A stretch of DNA of 24,771 nucleotides from a virus. The stretch is taken from positions 1-24,771 of IMG/VR virus record IMGVR_UViG_3300027971_000211; one strand, written 5' to 3'. The notes below the pieces were generated by a model, which was not told where the DNA came from, made no database searches, and was given only the letters and a program-made list of their open reading frames with translations. Positions 2,845-24,771 of this stretch are shown here, in pieces. Both the position numbers and the translations under genes were made by a program. Numbering within the stretch: the first letter of the stretch is position 1; every line of letters begins with the position of its first letter.

Positions 2845-4362
2845 ATGGCACTTCTAGGACAATCAATTAATCCAGCACTATTCATTCAAGATTACTCTGG
2901 CTTTACAAAAGCCGCAGGAATTCAAGCACAGGGAATGCAGAATCTTGGGCAGCAGATTCAAGATGTCGCGAAAGACTATACTGCCAATAAGAAAGAGGAA
3001 TCAAGGCTAAGTGCGGTAAAGAAAGCCGGCATTGCTGATATTCAAGCAGCTATCCAGTTAAGCAAATCAAGTGGTCTTGGCCTTGAGTCAACGCTTGAGC
3101 CTCTACTTGCTGCTGCAACAGATCCAAACTCATCGTTGATTGAGCAAGCTACCGCTGCCCAACAAGCATCGCAGAGCATTGGTACAACGATGAATACAAA
3201 GTTCAAGATTGAAGAACTTAATATGCAGCGTCAAGCAGCTTCAAGAGCAGGAGCAATGGATGCAGCAAAACTTCAAGCTATTGCTAATGAACAAAAAAGA
3301 AGTGAAGCTATTGCCAATGTTGTTGGCCCACAATTATTTACAGCAACAGTTAGCCAACTTCCTCCAGACGTTTCTAAATCTCTAATTGAGGCATCTAAGA
3401 ATTTAACTCCATTACAACAATATCAAATTGCAACATCTCCAGATGTTTTGAGCCTTGTTCCGAAATTATCAGAAGGATGGAGAATTACAACTCCACAAGA
3501 AACTGCGAATTATGGAATGGCTGGACAAATCAACACTAAAACTAATGAATTTAAGCCGCTCCCAGAATCTAAAACAGACTGGAGAATAACTACACCAGAA
3601 GAAGTTAAGACTTATGGAGCGGTTGGGCAAATAAACATTAAAACTAATGAATTCAAGCCAATCCCTCTACCATCTGGAACACAAGTAACAGTGTCTCCAG
3701 AAGGAAACGTTGTATTCGCTCAAGGTGCTGGAGTTGGCGCACCAACAAAAACTGAAGTTGCATTAGCAGCACAAGGAAAACAAAAAATAGAAGGATTGGT
3801 TCAATTTAATGATCTCGCTGCAAATTTGATTCCACAACTTGAGCAACAAGGTACTGGAATTATGGCTGGAACAGCAAGAGCTATTGGATCATATATTCCA
3901 TCATCAGAAACTCAAGCTCTTCAAGATAAGTTATCTACTGTTAAAAACTACCTATCTAGAGATTATGTTAATACGCTTAGGGCAGCTTCACCAACAGGAA
4001 GTGCTGGTGGATCAATTACTGAAAAAGAATGGCCTCGATTTGAGAATCAATATGGAGTTGTAGATGCATCAAGAAGCCCAGTACAAAATATTAACAATCT
4101 TCAGAAGATTGGGTTCTATCAATTTAATGCCGTTCATGGAACACCATCAGAACGAGCACAACTACTTAAAGAGGGGAAAATTACTCCAGAGCAAAATGCT
4201 CAAGTAGAACAAATGTATCTTGATATGAGGAATCGACTTAAGATCCCTGCAACTGGAATTAAAGACGTGGCTGGATCAGAACTAAAAGTATCAATGCTAA
4301 AATCAAACCTATCGCCAGAAATTCTTAGAGAAGCAGAAGCGATGGGACTTCAACTTAAATAA
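2845..4362 (+). CDS. Internal virion / ejection protein candidate with internal duplication
   Basis: The protein has 505 aa and starts three bases after the previous stop. The N-terminal 160 residues are helical, rich in Ala and Gln with little Cys or Trp. Residues 212-240 and 246-274 are a tandem duplication of a WRITTPxE...TNEFKP(L/I)P module. The remainder is helical with Gln-rich and charged segments and contains the conserved-looking stretch SPTGSAGGSITEKEWPRFE at about 384-402. Similar SGGSxTExE(W/L)xRxE motifs occur in phage internal proteins that sit beside ejection genes. Its position between two other ejection candidates supports a virion role. I see no catalytic motif. Confidence 0.5.
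   Translation: MALLGQSINPALFIQDYSGFTKAAGIQAQGMQNLGQQIQDVAKDYTANKKEESRLSAVKKAGIADIQAAIQLSKSSGLGLESTLEPLLAAATDPNSSLIEQATAAQQASQSIGTTMNTKFKIEELNMQRQAASRAGAMDAAKLQAIANEQKRSEAIANVVGPQLFTATVSQLPPDVSKSLIEASKNLTPLQQYQIATSPDVLSLVPKLSEGWRITTPQETANYGMAGQINTKTNEFKPLPESKTDWRITTPEEVKTYGAVGQINIKTNEFKPIPLPSGTQVTVSPEGNVVFAQGAGVGAPTKTEVALAAQGKQKIEGLVQFNDLAANLIPQLEQQGTGIMAGTARAIGSYIPSSETQALQDKLSTVKNYLSRDYVNTLRAASPTGSAGGSITEKEWPRFENQYGVVDASRSPVQNINNLQKIGFYQFNAVHGTPSERAQLLKEGKITPEQNAQVEQMYLDMRNRLKIPATGIKDVAGSELKVSMLKSNLSPEILREAEAMGLQLK
3478..3666 (+). repeat. Tandem 34-residue (102-nt) duplication within the 505-aa protein
   Basis: Copy A covers residues 212-240 and copy B covers 246-274. They share WRITTP, E, YG, GQIN, KTNEFKP and a final P, with 102 nt between equivalent positions. 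Several third-position differences show that the duplication is not recent. Confidence 0.9.
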
Positions 4363-4363
4363 A

Positions 4364-7315
4364 ATGGGACTATACGAAGATTTAGATTTAGTAAAAGCTG
4401 GACAAAACCAACTTGAACAGCAGTTTGGACAATTATCAAGTGAGTACCAAACTCTCTTGCAATCAGATCCATATGGTGCAGAACAAAAAAAGGCAGAAGC
4501 ATCTCAACTTCTTGGGAAAATTCAACTATTTTCTGGAGAAGGTGAAAAACTAAAAGCCCAACTTGCTGATGATCTAAAGAATTCAAAATATCTCACATAT
4601 GGTCTTGGTGATACGAATGCTCAAATCTCATTTAGTGATGAGGCAATCAAGAACAAGACAGCAGAGGCATTATCAAAATTCATTGGAGAGCCTGTTGATG
4701 TAACAACTGGACTTGGATATGCTGATAGAACTGCTGATGCGTTCCTAAGGGATGAGTCGAAAGATGAGTATCTTGCGAACAAATATGGCAAAGACAATGT
4801 TAAGACTGTTAATGTTGGCGGATCACCAACCAGAATTGTAAGAAACGAAACAGGTGGATGGATTGCAATGAATGAAATGGGAGGATCATTAAAGGATGCT
4901 CTTCCTGTATTAGGCGAAGTATTTCCATTAGCTGGATCTATTCTTGGAGGAATTGGTTTATCCGCGCTTCCGGGCGCACCACCTGTTGCGTCTATGGCAG
5001 TTGGTGGAGGTGCTGGATATGCTGCGGCTGGAACACTTCAAGATCAGATAATGAAAGCCTATCTTGGGGCTGGAGATGGACTTGCTGAATCATTTGGCAA
5101 GCGATCAACCGAAGCACTTCTTGGGGCAGGCCTTGAATATGGAGCAGGTAAATTAGCAAGCCCATTCCTAAAAAAGATGGGAACTGCTAAAGTTGACGAG
5201 TATTATCAAGGACTTAAAAAAGCTGAGGAAGATCTTGCATCAAGAGGATATTCAATGAATGTTGCTCAACTTGTTCAAGGTGGAGAAATTCAGAATAAAA
5301 AATGGTTACAACTTGCCCAAGATCGTCCAAATTCACAAGTTGCAAAAGATATTCAAATTGGAGTTGATCGTCTTCAACGTTTGAAATCAGATTTGACTCC
5401 TGCTCAAAAGTCATCAGCACTCTATAAAAGCACATTAGACAATATTCGACAAGCCCAACAAACTACTGCTGATATGGTTGGCTTGTATGATCGAAAAGCT
5501 GGAGATATTCTTAGATCGAATCTTGATGAGCAAACCCAAAGTTTAGTATTTGGTGGTCTTGAAGATACTCATAAGCTTGGATCTGATTTATTTAAAGCTC
5601 TTGGCAAAGCTGAAGCAAAAGCTAATGATATCAAGAATGAAACATATGCTCCATTCTATGAGTTAGCAAAAGGAAAAGTATCAGTAGATCCAATTAAACT
5701 TGCTAAGTTTGTTGAGAAAAACTATTATAGTAGTGTTCTTAGAAATCCAACACTTCAAGCTGAAATAGACCTGCTTAGAGCGCGTCCACAAAATCTAAAA
5801 AGAATTAATAGTATTGATGATGAGTTAAAATCAGTAGTAGACCGAGATAAAAGAGCACAACTTCAACTTGAACGTGCAGAACTTGAGCAGCTTTCTGGAA
5901 ATCTTGATATCAAACAGTTGAATGATACTGTTAGAAAATTCTCAGAAGCATACCCAGATTCTGGAATGACTGGTGCTAAAACATCAAAACAAGTTGCTGG
6001 AGCCGCAGCAAATGATATCAGAACATTTAGAAATAATGTTCTTGATAATCAAGGTTTGCTTGATGAATGGAATAATGCAACTCAAGTTTTTAATCAAAGA
6101 CTTGGATTTGAAGAAGGAACTATCGGAAAGTATTTAAAAGAACTTTCTGGAGGAAAACCAAATATGGACGAGACTGAAATAGTAAATTCCATATTGAGCA
6201 CTCCTAGGACAATTACAGATGCTGTCACGGCACTAAGCGTTGGTGATCCAGCAGTTGCATCTCAATTAGTAAAACGTCTTCAAAATGCTTATTTCAAAAA
6301 TATTGGAATATCAAATCAATCTGGCCGCCAAGTTGATGGATTTAATTTTGATGAAGATGTTGTAAGATCATTATTTGGATTCAATAGTGCTGGTAAACCT
6401 AATTCAGCATATGGAGATAATATGATTCGCAAGTTATACTCTCTTCAAGATGCAATTAATGCTAAAAATCTTGATCCAGCGAAATTAACAATGAAAGATA
6501 TTGATGATTTATCTGGAACTCTTTCTAGAAATTCAGAAAAAGAACTGAGAGATAGCATTGAGAAAAGAATTCGTAATCAAATGAGCGTAGATCAAACTAA
6601 GAATGACTCATTGATGGGGATTGCTTTAAATGGTCATAGAGAAGCTCTTGTTTCTGGAGAATTCCCAGAAGCGTTATGGAACGCAAATCCAGATCAGCTT
6701 AAAAAACTTCTCGCAATCATGCCAGATGCCGATAAAGAGGTTCTATCTGGAGACATGGCTGAACACTTGTTTGCTAAATATCCTCCAAGTGGTGAGTATG
6801 GAATTCATGGTGAATTGCTATGGAATGGCAAACTACTGCTTAAAGACTTTGCAAAAAATCCAAAACGTGTGCAAGTTCTTCGTGGGATTCTTGGCGACGA
6901 AACAGTAGATAATGTAATTTCCGCATCAAGATTGATGCAAGCAGCAAAAAACAAACCTGTCGCAAAAGGAATTCCGCAAGGAGGTGGAGTAATCAATAAT
7001 GCTGGAGTCAAATGGTATTTCCCTATTGAAAAAATTTCCTCTGGAATTAGAAATACTTGGATGTCTGCTGCATACAGAACTGGTGATTTAGTTCCGCTTC
7101 TTCGCAACATTGCTCGAAAAGAAATTACTGAAGAAGAGTTTAAGAAAAATGTATCAAATACCATGTTGAAACTTGCAAAAACATCTGCTGGAATTGAGGC
7201 CATGACACAAAGTGGGAGATACAATCCAGAATGGTCTGCATGGCTAGGAAATAATCTTGGAACTACAAGTAAAGAAACTCAGCAGTATCAAGAAAAATTT
7301 GGAATCGGACGATAA
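4364..7315 (+). CDS. Large internal virion / ejection protein candidate (983 aa)
   Basis: This is the largest protein in the window. The N-terminal 80 residues are helical. Residues about 176-225 form a Gly/Ala-rich hydrophobic segment (PLAGSILGGIGLSALPG, AVGGGAGYAAAG) that could insert into or cross a membrane. The rest is mostly helical and charged with long predicted coils, for example around residues 470-530. The size, the glycine-zipper-like segment and the place at the end of the ejection block fit the largest component of a podovirus trans-envelope DNA channel, analogous to T7 gp16 or P22 gp16. I see no lysozyme or transglycosylase motif. It could also be a large phage polyprotein of another type. 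Confidence 0.5.
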   Translation: MGLYEDLDLVKAGQNQLEQQFGQLSSEYQTLLQSDPYGAEQKKAEASQLLGKIQLFSGEGEKLKAQLADDLKNSKYLTYGLGDTNAQISFSDEAIKNKTAEALSKFIGEPVDVTTGLGYADRTADAFLRDESKDEYLANKYGKDNVKTVNVGGSPTRIVRNETGGWIAMNEMGGSLKDALPVLGEVFPLAGSILGGIGLSALPGAPPVASMAVGGGAGYAAAGTLQDQIMKAYLGAGDGLAESFGKRSTEALLGAGLEYGAGKLASPFLKKMGTAKVDEYYQGLKKAEEDLASRGYSMNVAQLVQGGEIQNKKWLQLAQDRPNSQVAKDIQIGVDRLQRLKSDLTPAQKSSALYKSTLDNIRQAQQTTADMVGLYDRKAGDILRSNLDEQTQSLVFGGLEDTHKLGSDLFKALGKAEAKANDIKNETYAPFYELAKGKVSVDPIKLAKFVEKNYYSSVLRNPTLQAEIDLLRARPQNLKRINSIDDELKSVVDRDKRAQLQLERAELEQLSGNLDIKQLNDTVRKFSEAYPDSGMTGAKTSKQVAGAAANDIRTFRNNVLDNQGLLDEWNNATQVFNQRLGFEEGTIGKYLKELSGGKPNMDETEIVNSILSTPRTITDAVTALSVGDPAVASQLVKRLQNAYFKNIGISNQSGRQVDGFNFDEDVVRSLFGFNSAGKPNSAYGDNMIRKLYSLQDAINAKNLDPAKLTMKDIDDLSGTLSRNSEKELRDSIEKRIRNQMSVDQTKNDSLMGIALNGHREALVSGEFPEALWNANPDQLKKLLAIMPDADKEVLSGDMAEHLFAKYPPSGEYGIHGELLWNGKLLLKDFAKNPKRVQVLRGILGDETVDNVISASRLMQAAKNKPVAKGIPQGGGVINNAGVKWYFPIEKISSGIRNTWMSAAYRTGDLVPLLRNIARKEITEEEFKKNVSNTMLKLAKTSAGIEAMTQSGRYNPEWSAWLGNNLGTTSKETQQYQEKFGIGR

Positions 7316-7320
7316 TAATT

Positions 7321-7467
7321 ATGAAAGCAAAACCAAAAGTAAAAACTAAGTCAATGAAGCAAGTTGGCTATCTCCTTAGTAAGGTAAGTCCACTAACTCC
7401 AAAGGAACAGAACAAACTGAAAAAAGAATTGCATTCTGGCAAGGTAAAGATTAAAAAAGCTAAATGA
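7321..7467 (+). CDS. 48-aa lysine-rich small protein
   Basis: This short ORF begins with ATG behind the AT-rich leader gataataatt and ends in TGA, which overlaps the ATG of the terminase small subunit gene by four bases (ATGA). The product has about 30% Lys, beginning MKAKPKVKTKSMKQVGYLL and ending KVKIKKAK. The tight coupling with the downstream gene argues that it is translated. The middle segment (LSPLTPKEQ-like) may form a helix. The role is unknown; binding to DNA or to the packaging machinery is possible. A 42-aa protein at 19131 shares the MKAK start and the composition. Confidence 0.6.
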   Translation: MKAKPKVKTKSMKQVGYLLSKVSPLTPKEQNKLKKELHSGKVKIKKAK

Positions 7468-8027
7468 CCGATGAAACTCAAACACAACCAACCGAGTACA
7501 AGAACATAAGAGAGGAAAAGTCTGCTTGGTTTCTTGAGATCAAGGAAAGAGCCAAGAATCTGCCAAGGGGTTCAGTTGAACACTATGCTCCAGCGGTTGC
7601 TGCACAGGCACTCTGGATGCTAGCTCAAGGTGCTAGGATCAAATCAATCTCAGAAAAGACTGGCCTAGGGCATGAGACAATTCGGAAACTTGAATGGAGA
7701 CATAATGACACGCTTGAGACAAAGCGTAAGGAATTTTCCATGCGTTATGCCATTGCTGCCCAAGAATACACTGACTTACTATTTGAAAAGGCTGAGCAAT
7801 TATCCAATGATTCGGAAGCTCTATCTAAGATTTCTCCAGACAAACTGGCTCTCACTATCGGCATTATGACCGACAAAGCCGCTCAGTTGACTGGCATGGC
7901 TGGAATGGTTATCGAGCATCGCAAGGGAGCATCTATTGATGACGCAATGAAGATGATTGCTGAAACTAAAGCAAGAATTGCAGAACGGATTAAATCCCAA
8001 GCAATTGAAGCTGAAATTATCGAATAA
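7464..8027 (+). CDS. terS: Terminase small subunit
   Basis: The protein has 187 aa. Residues 50-80 contain a helix-turn-helix, LAQGARIKSISEKTGLGHET, that would recognise the packaging site. A helical central region for oligomerisation (about 90-150) and a charged C-terminal tail ending EAEIIE follow. The portal and large terminase genes lie downstream, and only one gene separates this from terL, which supports the assignment. The start is fixed by the ATGA overlap with the preceding 48-aa gene, and the stop overlaps the next ATG (TAATG). The family is diverse in sequence, so the call relies on the HTH plus context. Confidence 0.75.
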   Translation: MTDETQTQPTEYKNIREEKSAWFLEIKERAKNLPRGSVEHYAPAVAAQALWMLAQGARIKSISEKTGLGHETIRKLEWRHNDTLETKRKEFSMRYAIAAQEYTDLLFEKAEQLSNDSEALSKISPDKLALTIGIMTDKAAQLTGMAGMVIEHRKGASIDDAMKMIAETKARIAERIKSQAIEAEIIE

Positions 8028-16623: not shown

Positions 16624-18155
16624 TGGAATACTCACTCTCTAGTTCACTTGTCGGAGGATCTGGATCAATCAACCCAGATGCGTCATCGCTGGATCTCCAG
16701 TTTGCTGCTGACAAGACACTCACTGCGCGTAAAGGGCCGACACCTGTGTTTACTAGGGCAAGCACAGCCACATATCTTGCACCTCAATTAAGTATTGATG
16801 GCTACCTTCTTGATAGTATTTATAATTCACAAAATGCTGTTTATCCATCATTTACTGTTTCATATAATGGAACTCAATGGCAGATAGCTAAAGATAACGA
16901 CCCAGAATCTCAAAATATATATTATGCTGCTGCTGGAAATGAATCAACTCCAGACAAGGCAGATTGGTCAGCATCTGGATCAAGTCCAGTAATAAAAACA
17001 TCATCCAGTATTGTTTATAGTGCTGCAATAAACGCTGCTCGTTTTGAACATGAACCACTAACTGCATTAAGTAAGGGATTACTAATTGAAGAATCACGCA
17101 CTAATCAAACAGCATATAGCACCAAATTTAGCAATAGTTATTCTAGTTACTGGAATAGCACAGCAAATAATGTAACAGCAGTTGATTTAGTGGCGACAAG
17201 TCCAAGTGGAACAGGATTATCATCTAGTTCAATTACTGAGATTGCTGGCGTTATGCTTACACGCCACATCCATGAAACAACTGGAGCATTTACTCCAGCA
17301 GCAAATACTGCATACACAATGAGCGCGTGGGTAAAACAACCACCATCTGATCCAGTGCGATATGTTCAACTTGCATTCTGGATTGCTGGATTTGGTTCTA
17401 CTGCCTACATGAATTATGATATTCAGAATGGAACAGTTGGCACTGGTGGGGCTGGAATTACAGCATCATCTATCACCGCATATCCAAATGGATGGTATAG
17501 GATTACCGCTACCGCAACAAGTGTAGCAAGTCCAGCAGCAAGTGGATTTCAGTTAGGATTCTCCACATCATCGAGTGCGGTGAGGACTGAGGCATACACT
17601 GTTGTATCTCCGCTCAAGTCGATTTATCTCTGGGGCGCACAGGTTGAGCGGGGGGCATTTGCTACTAGCTATATCCCAACAACTACCACATCCCTTACAC
17701 GCTCCGCTGACGTTTGCAGCATTACTGGATCTGATTTTACTGGAATGTGGAATCGTTTTGCTGGAACAGGAATCGCAAGCATTAGTAGTATGTATTCAAA
17801 TTCTGGACGTTTTGTTGCAAATAATATCGGAGCTAGAGCATTGGAAGTTTACAAAAACGGTGGTAATACTTTGTTCCTTGAGGCTGGTGGCGGAGGAGTA
17901 ATAGAAAGACAGATTTCAAATTCATCTACAGTTCCATTCAAAGCAGGAGTAGCGTATGCTATAGATGACTACCAAGGATCATTTAATGGAACGCTAGGTG
18001 GAGTTGATACAGATACTGGCGGAACCATTCCAAATGCCACATCGCTTAATATAGGCAATTTAAATAATGGTAATTTTCTCAATGGAACTATTTCATCAAT
18101 ACGTTACTTCAAGAAACGTCTACCAAATGCTAAACTCCAATCACTAACCACATGA
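16623..18155 (+). CDS. Lectin-like tail fibre / appendage protein
   Basis: The protein has 510 aa. It contains FTRASTATY (43-51), NAARFEHEPLT (137-147) and GLLIEESRTN (152-161), three signatures that occur together in many phage tail and structural proteins. A jelly-roll, carbohydrate-binding-like region follows, ending in LWGAQVERGAFATSYIPTTT. The last 130 residues resemble a LamG/concanavalin-type domain ending NGTISSIRYFKKRLP. It probably binds host surface glycans. A W-rich stretch of about 75 residues separates the first two signatures, which are usually much closer. The start overlaps the adaptor stop by three bases. Confidence 0.75.
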   Translation: MEYSLSSSLVGGSGSINPDASSLDLQFAADKTLTARKGPTPVFTRASTATYLAPQLSIDGYLLDSIYNSQNAVYPSFTVSYNGTQWQIAKDNDPESQNIYYAAAGNESTPDKADWSASGSSPVIKTSSSIVYSAAINAARFEHEPLTALSKGLLIEESRTNQTAYSTKFSNSYSSYWNSTANNVTAVDLVATSPSGTGLSSSSITEIAGVMLTRHIHETTGAFTPAANTAYTMSAWVKQPPSDPVRYVQLAFWIAGFGSTAYMNYDIQNGTVGTGGAGITASSITAYPNGWYRITATATSVASPAASGFQLGFSTSSSAVRTEAYTVVSPLKSIYLWGAQVERGAFATSYIPTTTTSLTRSADVCSITGSDFTGMWNRFAGTGIASISSMYSNSGRFVANNIGARALEVYKNGGNTLFLEAGGGGVIERQISNSSTVPFKAGVAYAIDDYQGSFNGTLGGVDTDTGGTIPNATSLNIGNLNNGNFLNGTISSIRYFKKRLPNAKLQSLTT

Positions 18156-18802
18156 TTGATTATCTTCTCAAAAAGATCTGCACGAAATGTGGTATTGAAA
18201 AGGATATTGCAAGTTTTAGTGTTGATAAGCAAAAGAAAGATGGTATTGTTTCGCACTGCAAGGAGTGTTGTCGTCTCGCTTCTAAAAAACACTACAGAAA
18301 TAATATTTCTTATTACCAGACTCGAAATAAAAAATTCTACGCTAATCTTTCTTCTGAAAAGAAGACTCAATATTGGGTTTCTTGCAACTCCAAAGAATCA
18401 ACAAAAATCAAACGATTGGAATGGCAGCAAGAAAACAAAGACAAGGTACGTGTTTACACTCAAAAATGGTATTCTAAAGCCATACCTGAAGTTTTGTCTC
18501 AAAAACGAAAAGATTATCGAAAGAAAAATCCTGAAGTATTTGCTAGGCACTCTGTAAAAAGAAGGTCTTCAGAAAAGGCTGCTACGCCGTTATGGGTAAC
18601 GGATGAGGATAAGGAAAAAACCAAATTGATTTATTTAAAGCGAGATTTCATAAATGAAGTGACTGGGATAAAACATGAAGTTGACCACATCTACCCAATA
18701 CAAGGTAAATATTCTTGTGGGCTACATGTTTATTGGAATCTTCGTATAATAACAGCCACTGAAAACAGAAGCAAAAAGAACTCTATACCTTGTTATGTGT
18801 GA
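18152..18802 (+). CDS. HNH endonuclease with N-terminal zinc finger
   Basis: The protein has 216 aa. Zinc knuckles C10-TK-C13 and C36-KE-C39 lie at the N-terminus. A long lysine- and tyrosine-rich helical linker follows. The C-terminal nuclease has HEVDHIYPIQG (D178, H179), then H192, N196 in YWNLRIITATEN and N205, with a trailing KKN. This is the HNH / beta-beta-alpha-metal pattern. Such genes are often free-standing homing endonucleases or packaging-linked nicking enzymes. It sits far from terL, between the fibre and lysis genes, which favours a mobile, homing-like gene. The composition is richer in A/T than the flanking capsid genes. The start overlaps the fibre stop (ATGA). Confidence 0.85.
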   Translation: MIDYLLKKICTKCGIEKDIASFSVDKQKKDGIVSHCKECCRLASKKHYRNNISYYQTRNKKFYANLSSEKKTQYWVSCNSKESTKIKRLEWQQENKDKVRVYTQKWYSKAIPEVLSQKRKDYRKKNPEVFARHSVKRRSSEKAATPLWVTDEDKEKTKLIYLKRDFINEVTGIKHEVDHIYPIQGKYSCGLHVYWNLRIITATENRSKKNSIPCYV

Positions 18803-21183: not shown

Positions 21184-21417
21184 ATGAAACACAGCACAAA
21201 AAAAGCACTATCAAGCCTTGATTTCGCAATCGCAGAGTGTACCCGGCCATCTAAAATGGATGATGAGTTTACACTATCCGAGTATATCGTTAAATCAAAA
21301 ATGCCACGAAGTACGGCTCAACAACATCTTGACAATCTTGTAAGGAGTGGAGTCTTGAGCAAGAGGAAGATTTCCATTGATGGGTCTATGTGCAACTTGT
21401 TCAAGAAAACCTGCTAA
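21184..21417 (+). CDS. Winged-helix DNA-binding protein
   Basis: The protein has 77 aa. It contains a helix-turn-helix, SEYIVKSKMPRSTAQQHLDN, followed by LVRSGVLSKRKISIDG, which has the shape of a small winged helix with its beta wing. It is the last plus-strand gene and its stop overlaps that of the convergent helicase-loader gene by four bases. Its position at the border between late and early regions is a natural place for a regulator, but no operator is visible. It is not recognised as a known repressor. Confidence 0.7.
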   Translation: MKHSTKKALSSLDFAIAECTRPSKMDDEFTLSEYIVKSKMPRSTAQQHLDNLVRSGVLSKRKISIDGSMCNLFKKTC

Positions 21418-21995
21418 ATTGCAGATTGCTTCCGATAGCTTTCCCAATCAAAGTGTAACCCAAGTCCGTTTTCTCTGATCCTGTCAAGTATCGCTGGAGA
21501 CATTGCTTGTGCAAATTTCTCTCTTGAGTAGTTTGAAATCAGCATTGTTGGTCTGCCATCAGCATATCTTGCATCAATGATCGAGGTTAGCTTGCGATCC
21601 TCAAAAGAAGTCTCTCCGCGCTCTTGAATCTCATCAATGACTAGAAATGCCGCTTCTGAATACTTCTTTACAACTTGCATCTCAGACATCTCAGCCTTGG
21701 GAGAGAATGATTCACGAAGCTCCATGAAGAGCATAACGGCTGTTGTGTAGTAACATGGCCTTGACTTGCGAATTGATGACATTCCAACAGCAGGAAACTC
21801 ATCTCTTGGCATCGTACAAGCCTTTGCGAGTTCATAAGCCATGCGAGACTTGCCTGTGCCATTGGTTCCGTAGGTTACGAGTATTCCGCCAGATTCGACT
21901 ATTGGCTTGCTCTTATTAAATGCTTCATGCCACTTGTCTCCCACGGGAGGTGCTGCGTCTTTGTATCGTTCTGGAAATCCTTTTAGAATGTTCAT
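21414..21995 (-). CDS. DnaC-like helicase loader ATPase
   Basis: The protein has 193 aa. Walker A is YGTNGTGKS (42-50), Walker B is FLVIDEI (117-123), sensor 1 is LISN (152-155) and the arginine finger is in ILDRIREN (R172). This is the DnaC/IstB AAA+ arrangement, reduced at the N-terminus. It would load a replicative helicase at the phage origin. No helicase gene is seen in this window, so it either lies beyond the right edge or is the host's. It starts with an ATG four bases after the stop of the gene at 22000. Confidence 0.85.
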   Translation of the reverse strand: MNILKGFPERYKDAAPPVGDKWHEAFNKSKPIVESGGILVTYGTNGTGKSRMAYELAKACTMPRDEFPAVGMSSIRKSRPCYYTTAVMLFMELRESFSPKAEMSEMQVVKKYSEAAFLVIDEIQERGETSFEDRKLTSIIDARYADGRPTMLISNYSREKFAQAMSPAILDRIRENGLGLHFDWESYRKQSAI

Positions 21996-21999
21996 TGTG

Positions 22000-22422
22000 T
22001 TAGTATTTGTTCAAGATGTTCGTGATTGAATACTTCTTCCTCATGTCAATCAATGCCAATTTGTCAACTGGCTGAGTTTTCTCAATCTTTTCTGACTCCT
22101 CTGTGCGAATTAACCTCTCAATCGCCTTTGATTCAGTGCATTTAAGCCTCTTAGCAAGTCTCTGTACCCGCTGGTAAGTCTCAACCGTTAGCCTTAAAGC
22201 AACTTGAACTCCACGTTCCTCTGGGGGCATTGGGTCACGCCCACCAACAAACCTAAACTTCTTCATGTCCTCGCGGGACATCTTTGTCTTGGTTCCTGTG
22301 ATGCGTTTCAAAGGTTTCCCAATCGCCTCTTCCCAAGAATGATCGCTCTGATTGCTGCCTTGGGTTGTCGAAAAGCCTTCTGATTGGGTTGTTTCTCCAT
22401 CCATATCCGTATTCTCCATCAT
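22000..22422 (-). CDS. Ribbon-helix-helix-like protein
   Basis: The protein has 140 aa from the ATG at 22422; an upstream TTG at 22443 would add seven residues. The N-terminal 60 residues are acidic and low-complexity. Residues about 68-105 (GVQVALRLTVETYQRVQRLA, then KRLKCTESKAIERLI) form a strand, helix and helix typical of a ribbon-helix-helix DNA-binding fold. It lies directly before the helicase loader, so it may bind an origin or act as a regulator. The assignment rests on pattern only. Confidence 0.65.
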   Translation of the reverse strand: MMENTDMDGETTQSEGFSTTQGSNQSDHSWEEAIGKPLKRITGTKTKMSREDMKKFRFVGGRDPMPPEERGVQVALRLTVETYQRVQRLAKRLKCTESKAIERLIRTEESEKIEKTQPVDKLALIDMRKKYSITNILNKY

Positions 22423-22497
22423 AATCGTCTGAGTCTTGGTCAAATTGATGTTGATTCATAGAGAGGCAAGTGATTTTTGTAACTCTATTATGAACAA

Positions 22498-22710
22498 TCA
22501 ATCATGGCAAGCAATTTTCTGTTGTGTTTTGTAGTAATTGTTCCTGCATCGTTGTTGCTGTGCAGCCCTTTTTTCTGGGTTAAGATAAGCCAGCTTCTTC
22601 ACTTCTGATATGCACCGAATGCATCGAGTTTTGTGACTCTCATAAAAGTGATTTGCTGGCTTATCTTGTTGGCATCTTCTGCACCATCGAGTTTCAATCG
22701 AGAAGGTCAT
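22498..22710 (-). CDS. Zinc-finger protein related to HNH N-termini
   Basis: The protein has 70 aa. C10-RR-C13 and C30-IR-C33 form a zinc finger with the same layout as the N-terminus of the HNH endonuclease at 18152. A positively charged helix LNPEKRAAQQQRCRNNYYK follows, as in HNH linkers. There is no HNH nuclease motif, so it is either a free-standing zinc finger or the shortened remains of an HNH gene. AAGAAGG lies eight to nine bases upstream of the ATG, a usable Shine-Dalgarno motif. The start overlaps the upstream gene's stop by 17 bases. Confidence 0.7.
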   Translation of the reverse strand: MTFSIETRWCRRCQQDKPANHFYESHKTRCIRCISEVKKLAYLNPEKRAAQQQRCRNNYYKTQQKIACHD

Positions 22711-23014
22711 CTTGAACCTTCTTCTTGAGATTATCCAAGTCTTGCCAAACTACGTTGAGCCGTTCAACGGCATCGCTTATTTGTCCTTCAAGCATCTCAT
22801 CGTATTCAAGATACATATCCCTCCAGCGTTTGGCCTCTTCTTGCCATAGATTGCGTTCATTAACAATATCGGAGTGTCCTTTTTGCCAAATGTGGCAACT
22901 ACGCACCGCCTCATCGCGTTCGGCAACAACTTCATCAATGCGCCGAAGCATCCGCAAGTAGTTTTCCTGATGTGCTTGCGCTCTTGATTTCCAGATTTCT
23001 AGTTCAGTTTTCAT
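22694..23014 (-). CDS. Coiled-coil early protein
   Basis: The protein has 106 aa from the ATG at 23014; an upstream TTG at 23062 would add 16 residues but overlap the previous gene by 59 bases, which is unlike its neighbours. The sequence is one long heptad-like helix: ELEIWKSRAQAHQENYLRML, then RRIDEVVAERDEAV and NERNLWQEEAKRWRDMY. It ends with a charged tail. The function is unknown. 'AERD' helices are common in small early genes of environmental phages. Confidence 0.65.
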   Translation of the reverse strand: MKTELEIWKSRAQAHQENYLRMLRRIDEVVAERDEAVRSCHIWQKGHSDIVNERNLWQEEAKRWRDMYLEYDEMLEGQISDAVERLNVVWQDLDNLKKKVQDDLLD

Positions 23015-23300
23015 CGTGTTGGGTTCGGTAAACTTTGTCGATTTCAGCAAGTGCTGAAACAACGCATTTTTGTGAAAGCGTAATGTTCCGCGCTATGTAA
23101 ATCTTCGCGCAGATCTTCCCTGCTTCTACGTATTTCTCTGCGAGTTGTTTTTGAAATAGCAGCTCGCTGAATAGTTCCTCCATCCGATCCGCTGCTTCTG
23201 CAATGGCTGCGTTGGCGACTCCTTCTTCGCTTTGTATATCATTGGCGAGAATTCTTAGTGCGCCGATAATTGTTTCTGTGCTGCTTCTCATATTTCCCAT
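23004..23300 (-). CDS. Small helical early protein
   Basis: The protein has 98 aa and contains ALRILANDIQSEEGVANAAI and AEAADRMEEL followed by a helical C-terminus. The phrase 'LRILAxDIQSExGVANAAIAEAADRMEEL' is one I recall from small proteins of environmental phages. Start choice: the ATG at 23300 overlaps the upstream gene by 13 bases, while a second ATG at 23291 gives the ATGA 4-bp overlap typical of this region and has GGGAA four bases upstream. The true start may be 23291 (95 aa). Function unknown. Confidence 0.65.
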   Translation of the reverse strand: MGNMRSSTETIIGALRILANDIQSEEGVANAAIAEAADRMEELFSELLFQKQLAEKYVEAGKICAKIYIARNITLSQKCVVSALAEIDKVYRTQHDEN

Positions 23301-23551
23301 GTTTGAGTTAGTCCATTATGACCACATTGTCCGCAGTCGTCTTTATCGTATTCCTGCTTACTGCATTGAAGTATTTGTAGCAGGTCGTACAATTCGACGC
23401 TGCCATCCACCAAGCCTTTTAATAGTTTGGCGCACAGAGCACTTTTGAAATCAAGAAGCACGTCGTCATCAAGATCATAGATACTCTCGTCGTTTACGGT
23501 TATGTACGTTCCCATGCAACCGCTGTATGCTTCGACTTTATATTTGCTCAT
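23288..23551 (-). CDS. 87-aa early protein with C-terminal CxxCxH
   Basis: The start is the ATG at 23551, which forms an ATGA overlap with the stop of the ABA-like gene. A strong GGAGGAGGA run lies a few bases before it, but that run also encodes Glu codons of the upstream gene. The protein is mixed alpha/beta: YKVEAYSGCMGTYITVNDES, then acidic DLDDDVLLDFKSALCAKLLK. It ends near D-C73-GQ-C76-G-H78. The three-residue metal-binding candidate is incomplete, so zinc binding is only possible. Function unknown. Confidence 0.65.
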   Translation of the reverse strand: MSKYKVEAYSGCMGTYITVNDESIYDLDDDVLLDFKSALCAKLLKGLVDGSVELYDLLQILQCSKQEYDKDDCGQCGHNGLTQTWEI

Positions 23552-23886
23552 TCTTCCTCCTCCCATTTTCCAAGTGTCCGCAAGAACGCTTCTGCTCGCT
23601 GGCGAGCGGTTGCGGTCATTGGAGCAAAGACAGGTTGCTCTGATTGCCATGCTGTAGATGTGAGCATTCGTGCATATTCTGCCGCTTTGATAGGATTTAA
23701 GGTCTTCTCAGTCTCATGCATGGCGTTGAGGCATCCTGCATAGTTGGGGATAATCGAATGACCCGTTTCATATTGAGGCATTAAATAGCGATTTCGTCCT
23801 TTGCAGAGTCCAAGGCTTTCCACATATTCGCAATCAGTCCACCCACACGCCTCTGCGATTGCTATGTTGATTTGTTCGTCAGTCAT
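23548..23886 (-). CDS. Phage ABA sandwich-like early protein, copy 1
   Basis: The protein has 112 aa. Its N-terminus MTDEQINIAIAEACGW, central GCLNAMHETEKTL and C-terminal TARQRAEAFLRTLGKW are the pattern I associate with the 'Phage ABA sandwich' family of environmental phages, whose function is unknown. It is a paralogue of the 108-aa gene at 24266: the start, middle and end match, but the segment between (residues 15-45) differs. The start codon overlaps the 26-codon micro-ORF by eight bases. Confidence 0.75.
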   Translation of the reverse strand: MTDEQINIAIAEACGWTDCEYVESLGLCKGRNRYLMPQYETGHSIIPNYAGCLNAMHETEKTLNPIKAAEYARMLTSTAWQSEQPVFAPMTATARQRAEAFLRTLGKWEEEE

Positions 23887-24065
23887 AATTGTAGTAAATT
23901 AGCATCATTGCAATCACCATGCCTGCGGCGATTGCGAGTTGGATTGTTTCGTTAGTCATTTTGATTGGTTGGTAATAGGGTCATTAAAGACTCAAATGCC
24001 TGTTGGGTATGGTAGCGGCCTTTAGCGTCGCGCAGATTTATGATCGCTTGGAGTAACACATCGCG
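23873..24065 (-). repeat. Tandem duplication, near-identical stretch, copy 1
   Basis: This 193-bp stretch matches 24579-24771 with four mismatches and no gaps at an offset of 706 bp. It covers the 3' third of the 105-aa gene, the micro-ORF and the first codons of the ABA-like gene. Confidence 0.95.
23879..23959 (-). CDS. Possible 26-aa hydrophobic micro-protein
   Basis: The frame starts at the ATG at 23959, inside the last codons of the 105-aa gene, and stops at TGA 23879-23881, inside the start of the ABA-like gene. The peptide is MTNETIQLAIAAGMVIAMML followed by IYYNYD, a single predicted membrane helix with a polar N-terminus. Eight-base overlaps at both ends match local gene packing, and it fills the only gap in this stretch. 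Against it, the equivalent frame in the second copy carries a nonsense codon, so it may be a chance frame. Confidence 0.35.
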   Translation of the reverse strand: MTNETIQLAIAAGMVIAMMLIYYNYD

Positions 24066-24269
24066 TTCGGCGATGGCGGTGGCTAGGAGGTCGCTTGCAC
24101 AATCTGCTGCTGACCTCAATCCATACAGTTTGCGTTCCAACTTTCGGCACAAAGCAACGATTGGATGCGTAAATGTAAATTTACCATTTAAAGACCAATG
24201 ATCTTCTTCCAAGAATTTGATATGCTTATTTTCTTTTACGCAATCGTCCGTTTCCGGTGTATCGCTCAT
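23952..24269 (-). CDS. 105-aa early protein (SDTPETD type), copy 1
   Basis: The protein has 105 aa from the ATG at 24269, which forms an ATGA overlap with the upstream ABA-like gene; an ORF start at 24284 would be further upstream. GGAGGAG lies six to twelve bases before the ATG, though it also codes for Glu in the upstream gene. The N-terminus MSDTPETDD is a phrase common in small phage proteins. A helical C-terminal half carries ALCRKLERKLYGLRS and AIAERDVLLQAIINL. The last 37 residues are repeated identically at the right edge of the window. Function unknown. Confidence 0.65.
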   Translation of the reverse strand: MSDTPETDDCVKENKHIKFLEEDHWSLNGKFTFTHPIVALCRKLERKLYGLRSAADCASDLLATAIAERDVLLQAIINLRDAKGRYHTQQAFESLMTLLPTNQND

Positions 24270-24592
24270 GCTTTCTCCTCCCATTTATTAAATGTTCGTA
24301 GAAAGGCTTCCGCTCGTTGGCGAGCAGTTGCGGATACATTATGTTCTAATGCAACTAAATATAAGCCATATCCCCCAATTAGGTCATAGCGAGAATCTCT
24401 ATCTAACGTCTTCTCAGCCTCATGTATCGCGTTGAGGCATCCTGCGCAGTTTGGGACTCTGTGTTCAATAAAATTTACCGCGATCTTAGTGCCATTAGGA
24501 TCTTCCCAATATGGCTCGTAGTCGGGATCATCCTCCACGAATCTCCATCCGCGTAGTTCAGCGATGGCTATGTTTATCTGTTCGTCAGTCAT
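24266..24592 (-). CDS. Phage ABA sandwich-like early protein, copy 2
   Basis: The protein has 108 aa, a paralogue of copy 1 at 23548. Shared parts are MTDEQINIAIAE, GCLNAIHEAEKTL and ATARQRAEAFLRTFNKWEE. The middle differs: this copy has WRFVEDDPDYEPYWEDPNGT, where copy 1 has a Cys-containing loop. The copies have diverged by many synonymous and some amino acid changes, so the duplication of this gene is older than the near-identical DNA to either side suggests. The function of the family is not known. Confidence 0.75.
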   Translation of the reverse strand: MTDEQINIAIAELRGWRFVEDDPDYEPYWEDPNGTKIAVNFIEHRVPNCAGCLNAIHEAEKTLDRDSRYDLIGGYGLYLVALEHNVSATARQRAEAFLRTFNKWEEKA

Positions 24593-24665
24593 AATTGTAG
24601 TAAATTAGCATCATTGCAATCACCATGCCTGCGGCGATTGCGAGTTAGATTGTTTCGTTAGTCAT
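24585..24665 (-). pseudogene. Second copy of the 26-codon frame, interrupted
   Basis: The DNA aligns base for base with 23879-23959 at an offset of 706, except for one change. That change turns the seventh codon from CAA into TAA (24645-24647). If the micro-ORF at 23879 is a gene, this is its broken copy; otherwise it is neutral spacer sequence. Confidence 0.4.
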
Positions 24666-24771
24666 TTTGATTGGTTGGTAATAGGGTCATTAAAGACTCA
24701 AATGCCTGTTGGGTATGGTAGCGGCCTTTAGCGTCGCGCAGATTTATGATCGCTTGAAGTAGCACGTCGCG
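24658..24771 (-). CDS. 105-aa early protein, copy 2, C-terminal part cut by window edge
   Basis: The frame is open from the right edge to TAA at 24658-24660 and encodes 37 residues, beginning RDVLLQAIINLRDAKGRYHT. They are identical to the end of the 105-aa protein at 23952. Three base differences between the two copies are all silent (GAC/GAT, CTA/TTA, CTT/CTC). The start lies outside the window. Confidence 0.75.
   Translation of the reverse strand, partial: RDVLLQAIINLRDAKGRYHTQQAFESLMTLLPTNQND

Follow-up and report, generated by a model that had tools for sequence, protein, structure and literature searches.

The window, meaning the whole stretch of DNA analysed here, comprises an entire viral record, 24,771 bases long. 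Read along the minus strand, its right end holds, in order, the end of an upstream gene, micro-ORF 2, ABA-like gene 2, a 105-aa gene of the TPETD type, micro-ORF 1, ABA-like gene 1, and an ORF of ~87 aa starting with MSKYKVEAYSG. The features are listed below with the blocks (C1, C2, C3) and cassettes (V1, V2) of the ABA-like genes; relatives (L002, L003, and so on) are loci on metagenome contigs, ranked by their similarity to the window proteins.

23548-23886, minus strand: ABA-like gene 1 (112 aa), from the ORF list, a family match, and an AF2 model (pLDDT 91)
23839-23886, 23701-23745, and 23551-23613, minus strand: conserved blocks C1, C2, and C3 of ABA-like gene 1
23746-23838, minus strand: cassette V1 of ABA-like gene 1, with no relation to its counterpart in gene 2 (26% at the amino acid level)
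23614-23700, minus strand: cassette V2 of ABA-like gene 1, with 94-95% DNA identity to the V2 of L003 and L002
23873-24050, no strand assigned: putatively homogenised junction tract, copy 1, from the mismatch list and a synonymous-site test; 1 mismatch against copy 2
23879-23959, minus strand: micro-ORF 1, MTNETIQLAIAAGMVIAMMLIYYNYD, with homologues in L002, L003, L071, L085, L089, L090, and L091
23952-24269, minus strand: 105-aa TPETD-type gene, apparently mosaic, from blastn and ORF maps
24266-24592, minus strand: ABA-like gene 2 (108 aa), from the ORF list and an AF2 model (pLDDT 84)
24545-24592, 24407-24451, and 24269-24331, minus strand: conserved blocks C1, C2, and C3 of ABA-like gene 2
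24452-24544, minus strand: cassette V1 of ABA-like gene 2, 91-94% DNA-identical in L003, L085, and L091
24332-24406, minus strand: cassette V2 of ABA-like gene 2, 97% DNA-identical in L045, where it accompanies an unrelated V1
24579-24756, no strand assigned: putatively homogenised junction tract, copy 2, from the same two analyses
24585-24665, minus strand: micro-ORF 2, interrupted by TAA at codon 7 (24645-24647), by direct reading
24658-24771, minus strand: 3' part (37 codons plus the stop) of the adjacent upstream gene, truncated where the contig stops; its tail is that of the 105-aa gene, and 70 nt are identical to the end of L118

The locus L118 (record IMGVR_UViG_3300027971_000531, 12,452 bases) overlaps the window at both ends: positions 1-165 of the window and 1-165 of L118 are 98.2% identical, and window 24702-24771 matches L118 12383-12452 at 100% over 70 nt. 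Joined, the two give a circular-looking sequence of ~36,990 bp. The record of L085, at 36,966 bp with 123-bp identical ends, contains homologues of genes from both halves. We strongly infer that the window and L118 make up one circular or terminally redundant phage genome of ~37 kb, short of proof because L118 comes from another strain. The early block (window 21414-24771) seems to run opposite to the structural genes in this genome and to be oriented with them in the 36,966-bp relative (L085 record; L119/L120). Elsewhere in the window, a 505-aa plus-strand gene carries an internal repeat (3478-3563 and 3580-3665; 102-nt spacing, 79%), in which the motif WRITTP...QINTKTNEFKP occurs twice, and a 216-aa ORF inserted after a tail-type gene (18152-18802) looks by eye like an HNH-type endonuclease.

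A preliminary description of this DNA had reported a repeat at an offset of 706 bp with an almost identical junction, and this was confirmed. The direct repeat (23852-24065 and 24558-24771) spans 214 nt with 8 mismatches (96% identical), and its core (23873-24050 and 24579-24756) has 1 mismatch in 178 nt, which excludes chance. It had also been proposed that the unit of 105-aa gene, micro-ORF, and ABA-like gene is present twice. Two ABA-like genes do follow the direct repeat, but the second 105-aa gene is represented by its last 37 codons only, because the contig ends inside the repeat, and the head found in L118 differs. Nor is the micro-ORF duplicated intact: the single differing base of the 178-nt tract creates a stop at codon 7 of the right-hand copy (CAA to TAA), which had been overlooked. 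Since the same tail stands on differing heads in the window and L118, the repeated element is, as far as these alignments reach, a segment made of tail, micro-ORF, and ABA start, probably with no clean duplication of a three-gene unit. An assembly artefact is unlikely for the two ABA-like genes, because they differ throughout.

The 105-aa gene, judged by its matches, is itself a mosaic. Its head (residues 1-60) is common to L045, L084, and L085, and its tail (61-105) to L003, L085, L086, and L089. The head is 96% DNA-identical over 179 nt to the L045 gene, which has another tail, while the tail is found on three other heads, in L085 (144 aa), L086 (158 aa), and L003 (112 aa). The L118 gene at the join combines the tail of the 105-aa gene with a head, MTNTMNRYSL..., that bears no relation to the 105-aa protein; it is immediately preceded by a third gene, in which the same tail stands on yet another head.

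The micro-ORF encodes a conserved 26-aa peptide, for which one transmembrane segment is predicted by composition. Relatives of 25-27 aa with the same start and a hydrophobic middle occupy the same place in L002, L003, L071, L085, L089, and L091, and a shorter relative is at the equivalent place in L090; a search with the exact start pattern found 1 contig only. By this conservation (pooled pS 0.44, pN 0.23), the micro-ORF is in all appearance a real gene, and since it precedes genes other than the ABA-like gene in L089 and L090, it forms a separate module. On direct reading, the start of micro-ORF 1 overlaps the stop of the 105-aa gene and its own stop overlaps the ABA start, which suggests translational coupling. 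The leader CAAAATGACT is common to many TPETD genes and micro-ORFs, with 16 occurrences against 0.36 expected and none antisense. A near-identical start leader, CCAACCAACCAAAATGACT, was also seen on genes with unrelated bodies, where it overlaps the stop of the preceding gene; it lies upstream of TPETD genes and micro-ORFs, for instance at ~23959 and ~24665 of the window and in L118, L003, L071, L089, and L090, and may be both a translation signal and a recombination joint.

The ABA-like genes are members of a family of which viral contigs contain at least 464 stretches. Tandem copies are common, as 27 of the 84 ABA-bearing loci gave more than one profile match, a few of these being split matches of one gene. 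In an alignment of 77 members there are three conserved blocks, with M1, G15, and H57 invariant and W16, L53-E60, R97-L102, and K107-W108 nearly so. Median pairwise identity is ~73-75% in the conserved blocks and 20% in each of V1 and V2, which in most members measure 20-34 aa and 22-35 aa, respectively. Three proteins were seen to be devoid of V1 with both neighbouring blocks kept (L067:3654-3881, L040:2665-2907, and L074:2723-2974). The two window genes are likewise similar to each other only in their N-terminal, middle, and C-terminal blocks, and given the family-wide pattern, their uneven divergence is a trait of the whole family. The divergence described earlier, placed mostly in residues 15-45, is thus real, but it falls in two cassettes, at residues 17-47 and 63-91 in the numbering of the first protein.

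The two cassettes were shown, by comparison of the predicted proteins, to be recurrent types that combine almost freely. Counting cassettes as shared at ≥60% identity and as unrelated below 35%, a first set of 104 distinct proteins gave V2 below 35% in 77 of 88 V1-sharing pairs and V1 below 35% in 58 of 70 V2-sharing pairs. After newly fetched loci had enlarged the set to 145 distinct proteins, 77 V1 types and 85 V2 types were found in 125 combinations; V2 was unrelated in 138 of 171 V1-sharing pairs and V1 in 91 of 123 V2-sharing pairs. More than one partner was found for 25 of the 27 recurrent V1 types and 27 of the 31 recurrent V2 types. A residual linkage between V1 and V2 (31 of 171, against a base rate of 1.2%) counts against fully free combination. 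Only two control families were usable: a 273-aa family from the same loci had no discordant pairs, and a coiled-coil family of ~130 aa had 8, so that mosaicism extends beyond the ABA family.

The window genes take part in this exchange. In L003 and L002, V2 matches that of ABA-like gene 1 at 94-95% though identity between the V1 cassettes is 54-55%; in L003, L085, and L091, the V1 of ABA-like gene 2 stands each time beside a different, unrelated V2. L003 therefore joins the V1 of one window gene (ABA-like gene 2) with the V2 of the other. The first set contained 135 discordant pairs, and in 35 of them one cassette is shared at ≥95% DNA identity, up to 100%, with the other cassette mostly 38-55% identical and the flanking "conserved" blocks 65-100%. 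Several pairs have a cassette at 100% and flanking blocks that are less alike, as in L046 and L057 (V2 100%, C2 93%, C3 68%, V1 38%), and L014 and L067 have the same cassette types in different pairings. These DNA comparisons showed that cassettes are exchanged as DNA blocks among genes that have diverged elsewhere. As a rule, C2 contains no long exact match (the longest has a median of 18 nt and a maximum of 35 nt), which is below the usual minimum for homologous recombination, so either the flanks have diverged since the exchange or a low-stringency pathway is needed.

Within shared cassettes, dN/dS is 0.14-0.15, similar to that of the conserved blocks, and selection there is, by this measure, purifying; new diversity consequently does not stem from accelerated amino acid change within a type. 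The "diversification of the ABA loop" proposed earlier gives way to a more specific account, in which diversity arises through exchange of whole cassettes between phages, each cassette being under purifying selection.

The junction behaves differently from the ABA genes that it adjoins. Between its two copies, none of 36.8 synonymous sites differ, whereas C1, C2, and C3 of the two window genes have 20.3 differences in 34.5 sites (Fisher p=6e-9). Other phages do differ from the window in the tail segment, by 3.5-7 synonymous differences in 21 sites, so constraint alone fails to explain the identity. Judged on synonymous sites, recent homogenisation, or a recent copying of the segment, accounts for it better. 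Of the two readings offered in the preliminary description, recent gene conversion is accordingly supported, and strong constraint is disfavoured both by the synonymous-site test and by the differences in other phages. The comparison of synonymous and nonsynonymous change per segment that it had called for points to homogenisation of the junction but to purifying selection (dN/dS ~0.14) in the cassettes. Conservation of the gene ends is partly translational, since on direct reading the C3 codons for WEEE contain GGAGGAGG immediately 5' of the next ATG.

The AF2 models of the two window proteins have the same order of elements, namely a helix at 3-13, 2-3 short strands in V1, a helix at 53-60, a helix in V2, and a C-terminal helix, so the models give both proteins the same predicted frame despite their different cassettes. 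A fold search of the PDB with the first model found nothing resembling it (best match E=3.3), and in BFVD at E≤0.001 its matches are uncharacterised proteins of uncultured Caudovirales only. Pfam Phage_ABA_S matched neither the 77 family members at E≤0.5 nor the window proteins, and Pfam and NCBIfam offered no usable family for either. The label "ABA-sandwich-like", given at the outset, has neither a family nor a PDB fold behind it, and the name, kept here as a handle, should be dropped. Sequence-profile matches to the PDB entries 2fic (E=0.02) and 6n7m (E=0.54) are to unrelated molecules and were taken as chance. The unknown-function PHROG phrog_444 is weakly matched by 20 of the 77 members (best E 2e-4), in contrast to the window proteins, which do not match; these matches are too weak to call membership.

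Phage reference records gave no DNA or protein match, and literature searches on the ABA sandwich, nin-region boundary sequences, and freshwater Verrucomicrobia phage mosaics returned nothing directly relevant. A scan of bacterial genomes found 3 Verrucomicrobia MAG contigs and 3 short partial matches, a weak hint that Verrucomicrobia are a possible host. In the contigs binned as Verrucomicrobia, L112, L113, and L114, the family lies beside helicase and other replication genes, and in one of them with a TPETD gene.

We consider it likely that the feature belongs to an array of mosaic early genes in a ~37-kb phage, in which the ABA frame and its exchangeable V1 and V2 cassettes are reshaped by recombination and the junction was recently homogenised. 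The frame, of ~110 aa, would consist of N-terminal, middle, and C-terminal helices and would carry V1 (strands and a loop) and V2 (a helix and a loop). The cassettes would be exchanged through low-stringency homologous recombination in the short conserved blocks, whether inside one phage or among co-infecting ones, with the phage's own Erf recombinase and exonuclease as the most likely agents. L118 encodes an ERF-family protein (6264-6845, E=3.6e-23) with an adjacent DUF3799/PDDEXK (PD-(D/E)XK) nuclease (6842-7630, E=1.4e-23), the composition of an Erf-type recombination system. ERF is also found in the L002, L085, L091, and L006 records and RecT in four other ABA-bearing records. With either one detected in 9 of 30 ABA-bearing records, which may be fragments or use other recombinases, the link to a recombinase is not general. 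Less certainly, the cassettes may form binding surfaces of a host takeover or counter-defence factor, and a swap would then change the target; types would be kept by purifying selection while their combinations turn over.

Several other explanations were weighed. According to the simplest, a plain tandem duplication was followed by point-mutational divergence of the ABA genes, while constraint preserved the junction. Homologous ABA genes and their junctions do occur twice in tandem, and tandem copies are common in relatives; yet the window genes share cassettes at 91-97% DNA identity with other phages while differing from each other beyond alignment, the junction is identical at synonymous sites where other phages differ, and the gene upstream of copy 2 has another head in L118, all of which makes this account unlikely. 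Chimeric metagenome assembly, as a source of both the mosaics and the repeated junction, is harder still to credit. The window and L118 both end inside the repeated junction, so assemblers break here, but the discordance recurs across many independent contigs and samples, the 3-9% divergence of the window's shared cassettes shows that they did not come from the same reads, and exact matches in C2 are short. A diversity-generating retroelement, or other targeted mutagenesis of the variable segments, is extremely improbable: variable segments in a constant frame resemble its variable regions, but here the variants come as separate, recurring blocks whose DNA is up to 100% identical from phage to phage, rather than as clouds of substitutions. 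Adenine-directed point variation was not found, the variation being block-wise with 95-100% identical DNA in shared blocks. The differences in cassette length and the low dN/dS inside a type speak against it too, and no reverse transcriptase was recognised among the proteins examined (by means other than a dedicated profile search).

The main rival is neutral exchange, a serious possibility, in which short, homologous, dispensable early genes recombine often without selection for new specificity. Mosaicism extends to the neighbouring TPETD genes, the start linker CAAAATGACT recurs on unrelated genes, and forms without V1 exist. Against it stand the purifying selection in cassettes, the conserved H57, G15, and L53-E60, and the ~80 types kept per position, from which it can be argued that each type is functional. 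The position among replication genes, the tandem copies, and the swappable modules suggest instead that the ABA-like protein might be a variable binding factor for host takeover or counter-defence, a reading that we put forward tentatively. Its extension to a widespread two-slot specificity system, with dozens of V1 and V2 modules per slot shuffled in arrays by low-stringency phage recombination into combinatorial counter-defence or takeover specificities, is just as tentative.

The recombinational reading gives a small, abundant, unannotated family an evolutionary logic, since modular swapping with purifying selection within modules normally marks interchangeable specificity. It suggests that in these phages the functional parts of an early protein are recombined instead of being changed gradually by mutation. 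Should the modules determine binding targets, the family would be a ready-made natural library for counter-defence or takeover factors, and phage variation by recombination of sub-gene cassettes, as opposed to mutation, would become testable.

The layout recalls HsdS of Type I restriction, whose two target recognition domains lie between conserved regions and undergo domain movement (PMC3077401). In both, two variable segments flanked by conserved regions recombine independently, through conserved or repeat parts, to give combinatorial diversity. However, HsdS is ~400 aa against ~110 aa for the ABA-like proteins, whose cassettes, unlike its domains, keep their position (the best V1-V2 cross similarity is low). 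No partner methylase or endonuclease was identified at the ABA locus, and no Pfam family, including DNA-recognition domains, recurs among the 77 members, so the likeness is one of layout only.

As for the proposed pathway, the relaxed recombination by Rad52-like proteins (De Paepe et al. 2014; PMC3945230) offers a parallel, with Erf and an exonuclease in the presumed other part of the genome (L118) and in several relatives, and with short, diverged homologies. On 78%-identical DNA, phage D3 Erf/Exo is roughly as efficient in recombination as lambda Red, and ~30 bp suffices for Red-beta (PMC3945230). That work concerned lambdoid phages and prophages, whereas the link here is one of genetic context. 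Domain mosaicism of phage proteins (Smug et al. 2023; PMC10684548) is similar in that fragments are swapped between otherwise different proteins, a process seen as ongoing. In the part of that report drawn on here, mosaicism is mainly found in receptor-binding proteins, endolysins, neck passage structures, and replication proteins; the ABA-like family differs from the cases given there in its cassettes of 20-35 aa, its tiny unannotated early protein, and its two-slot format.
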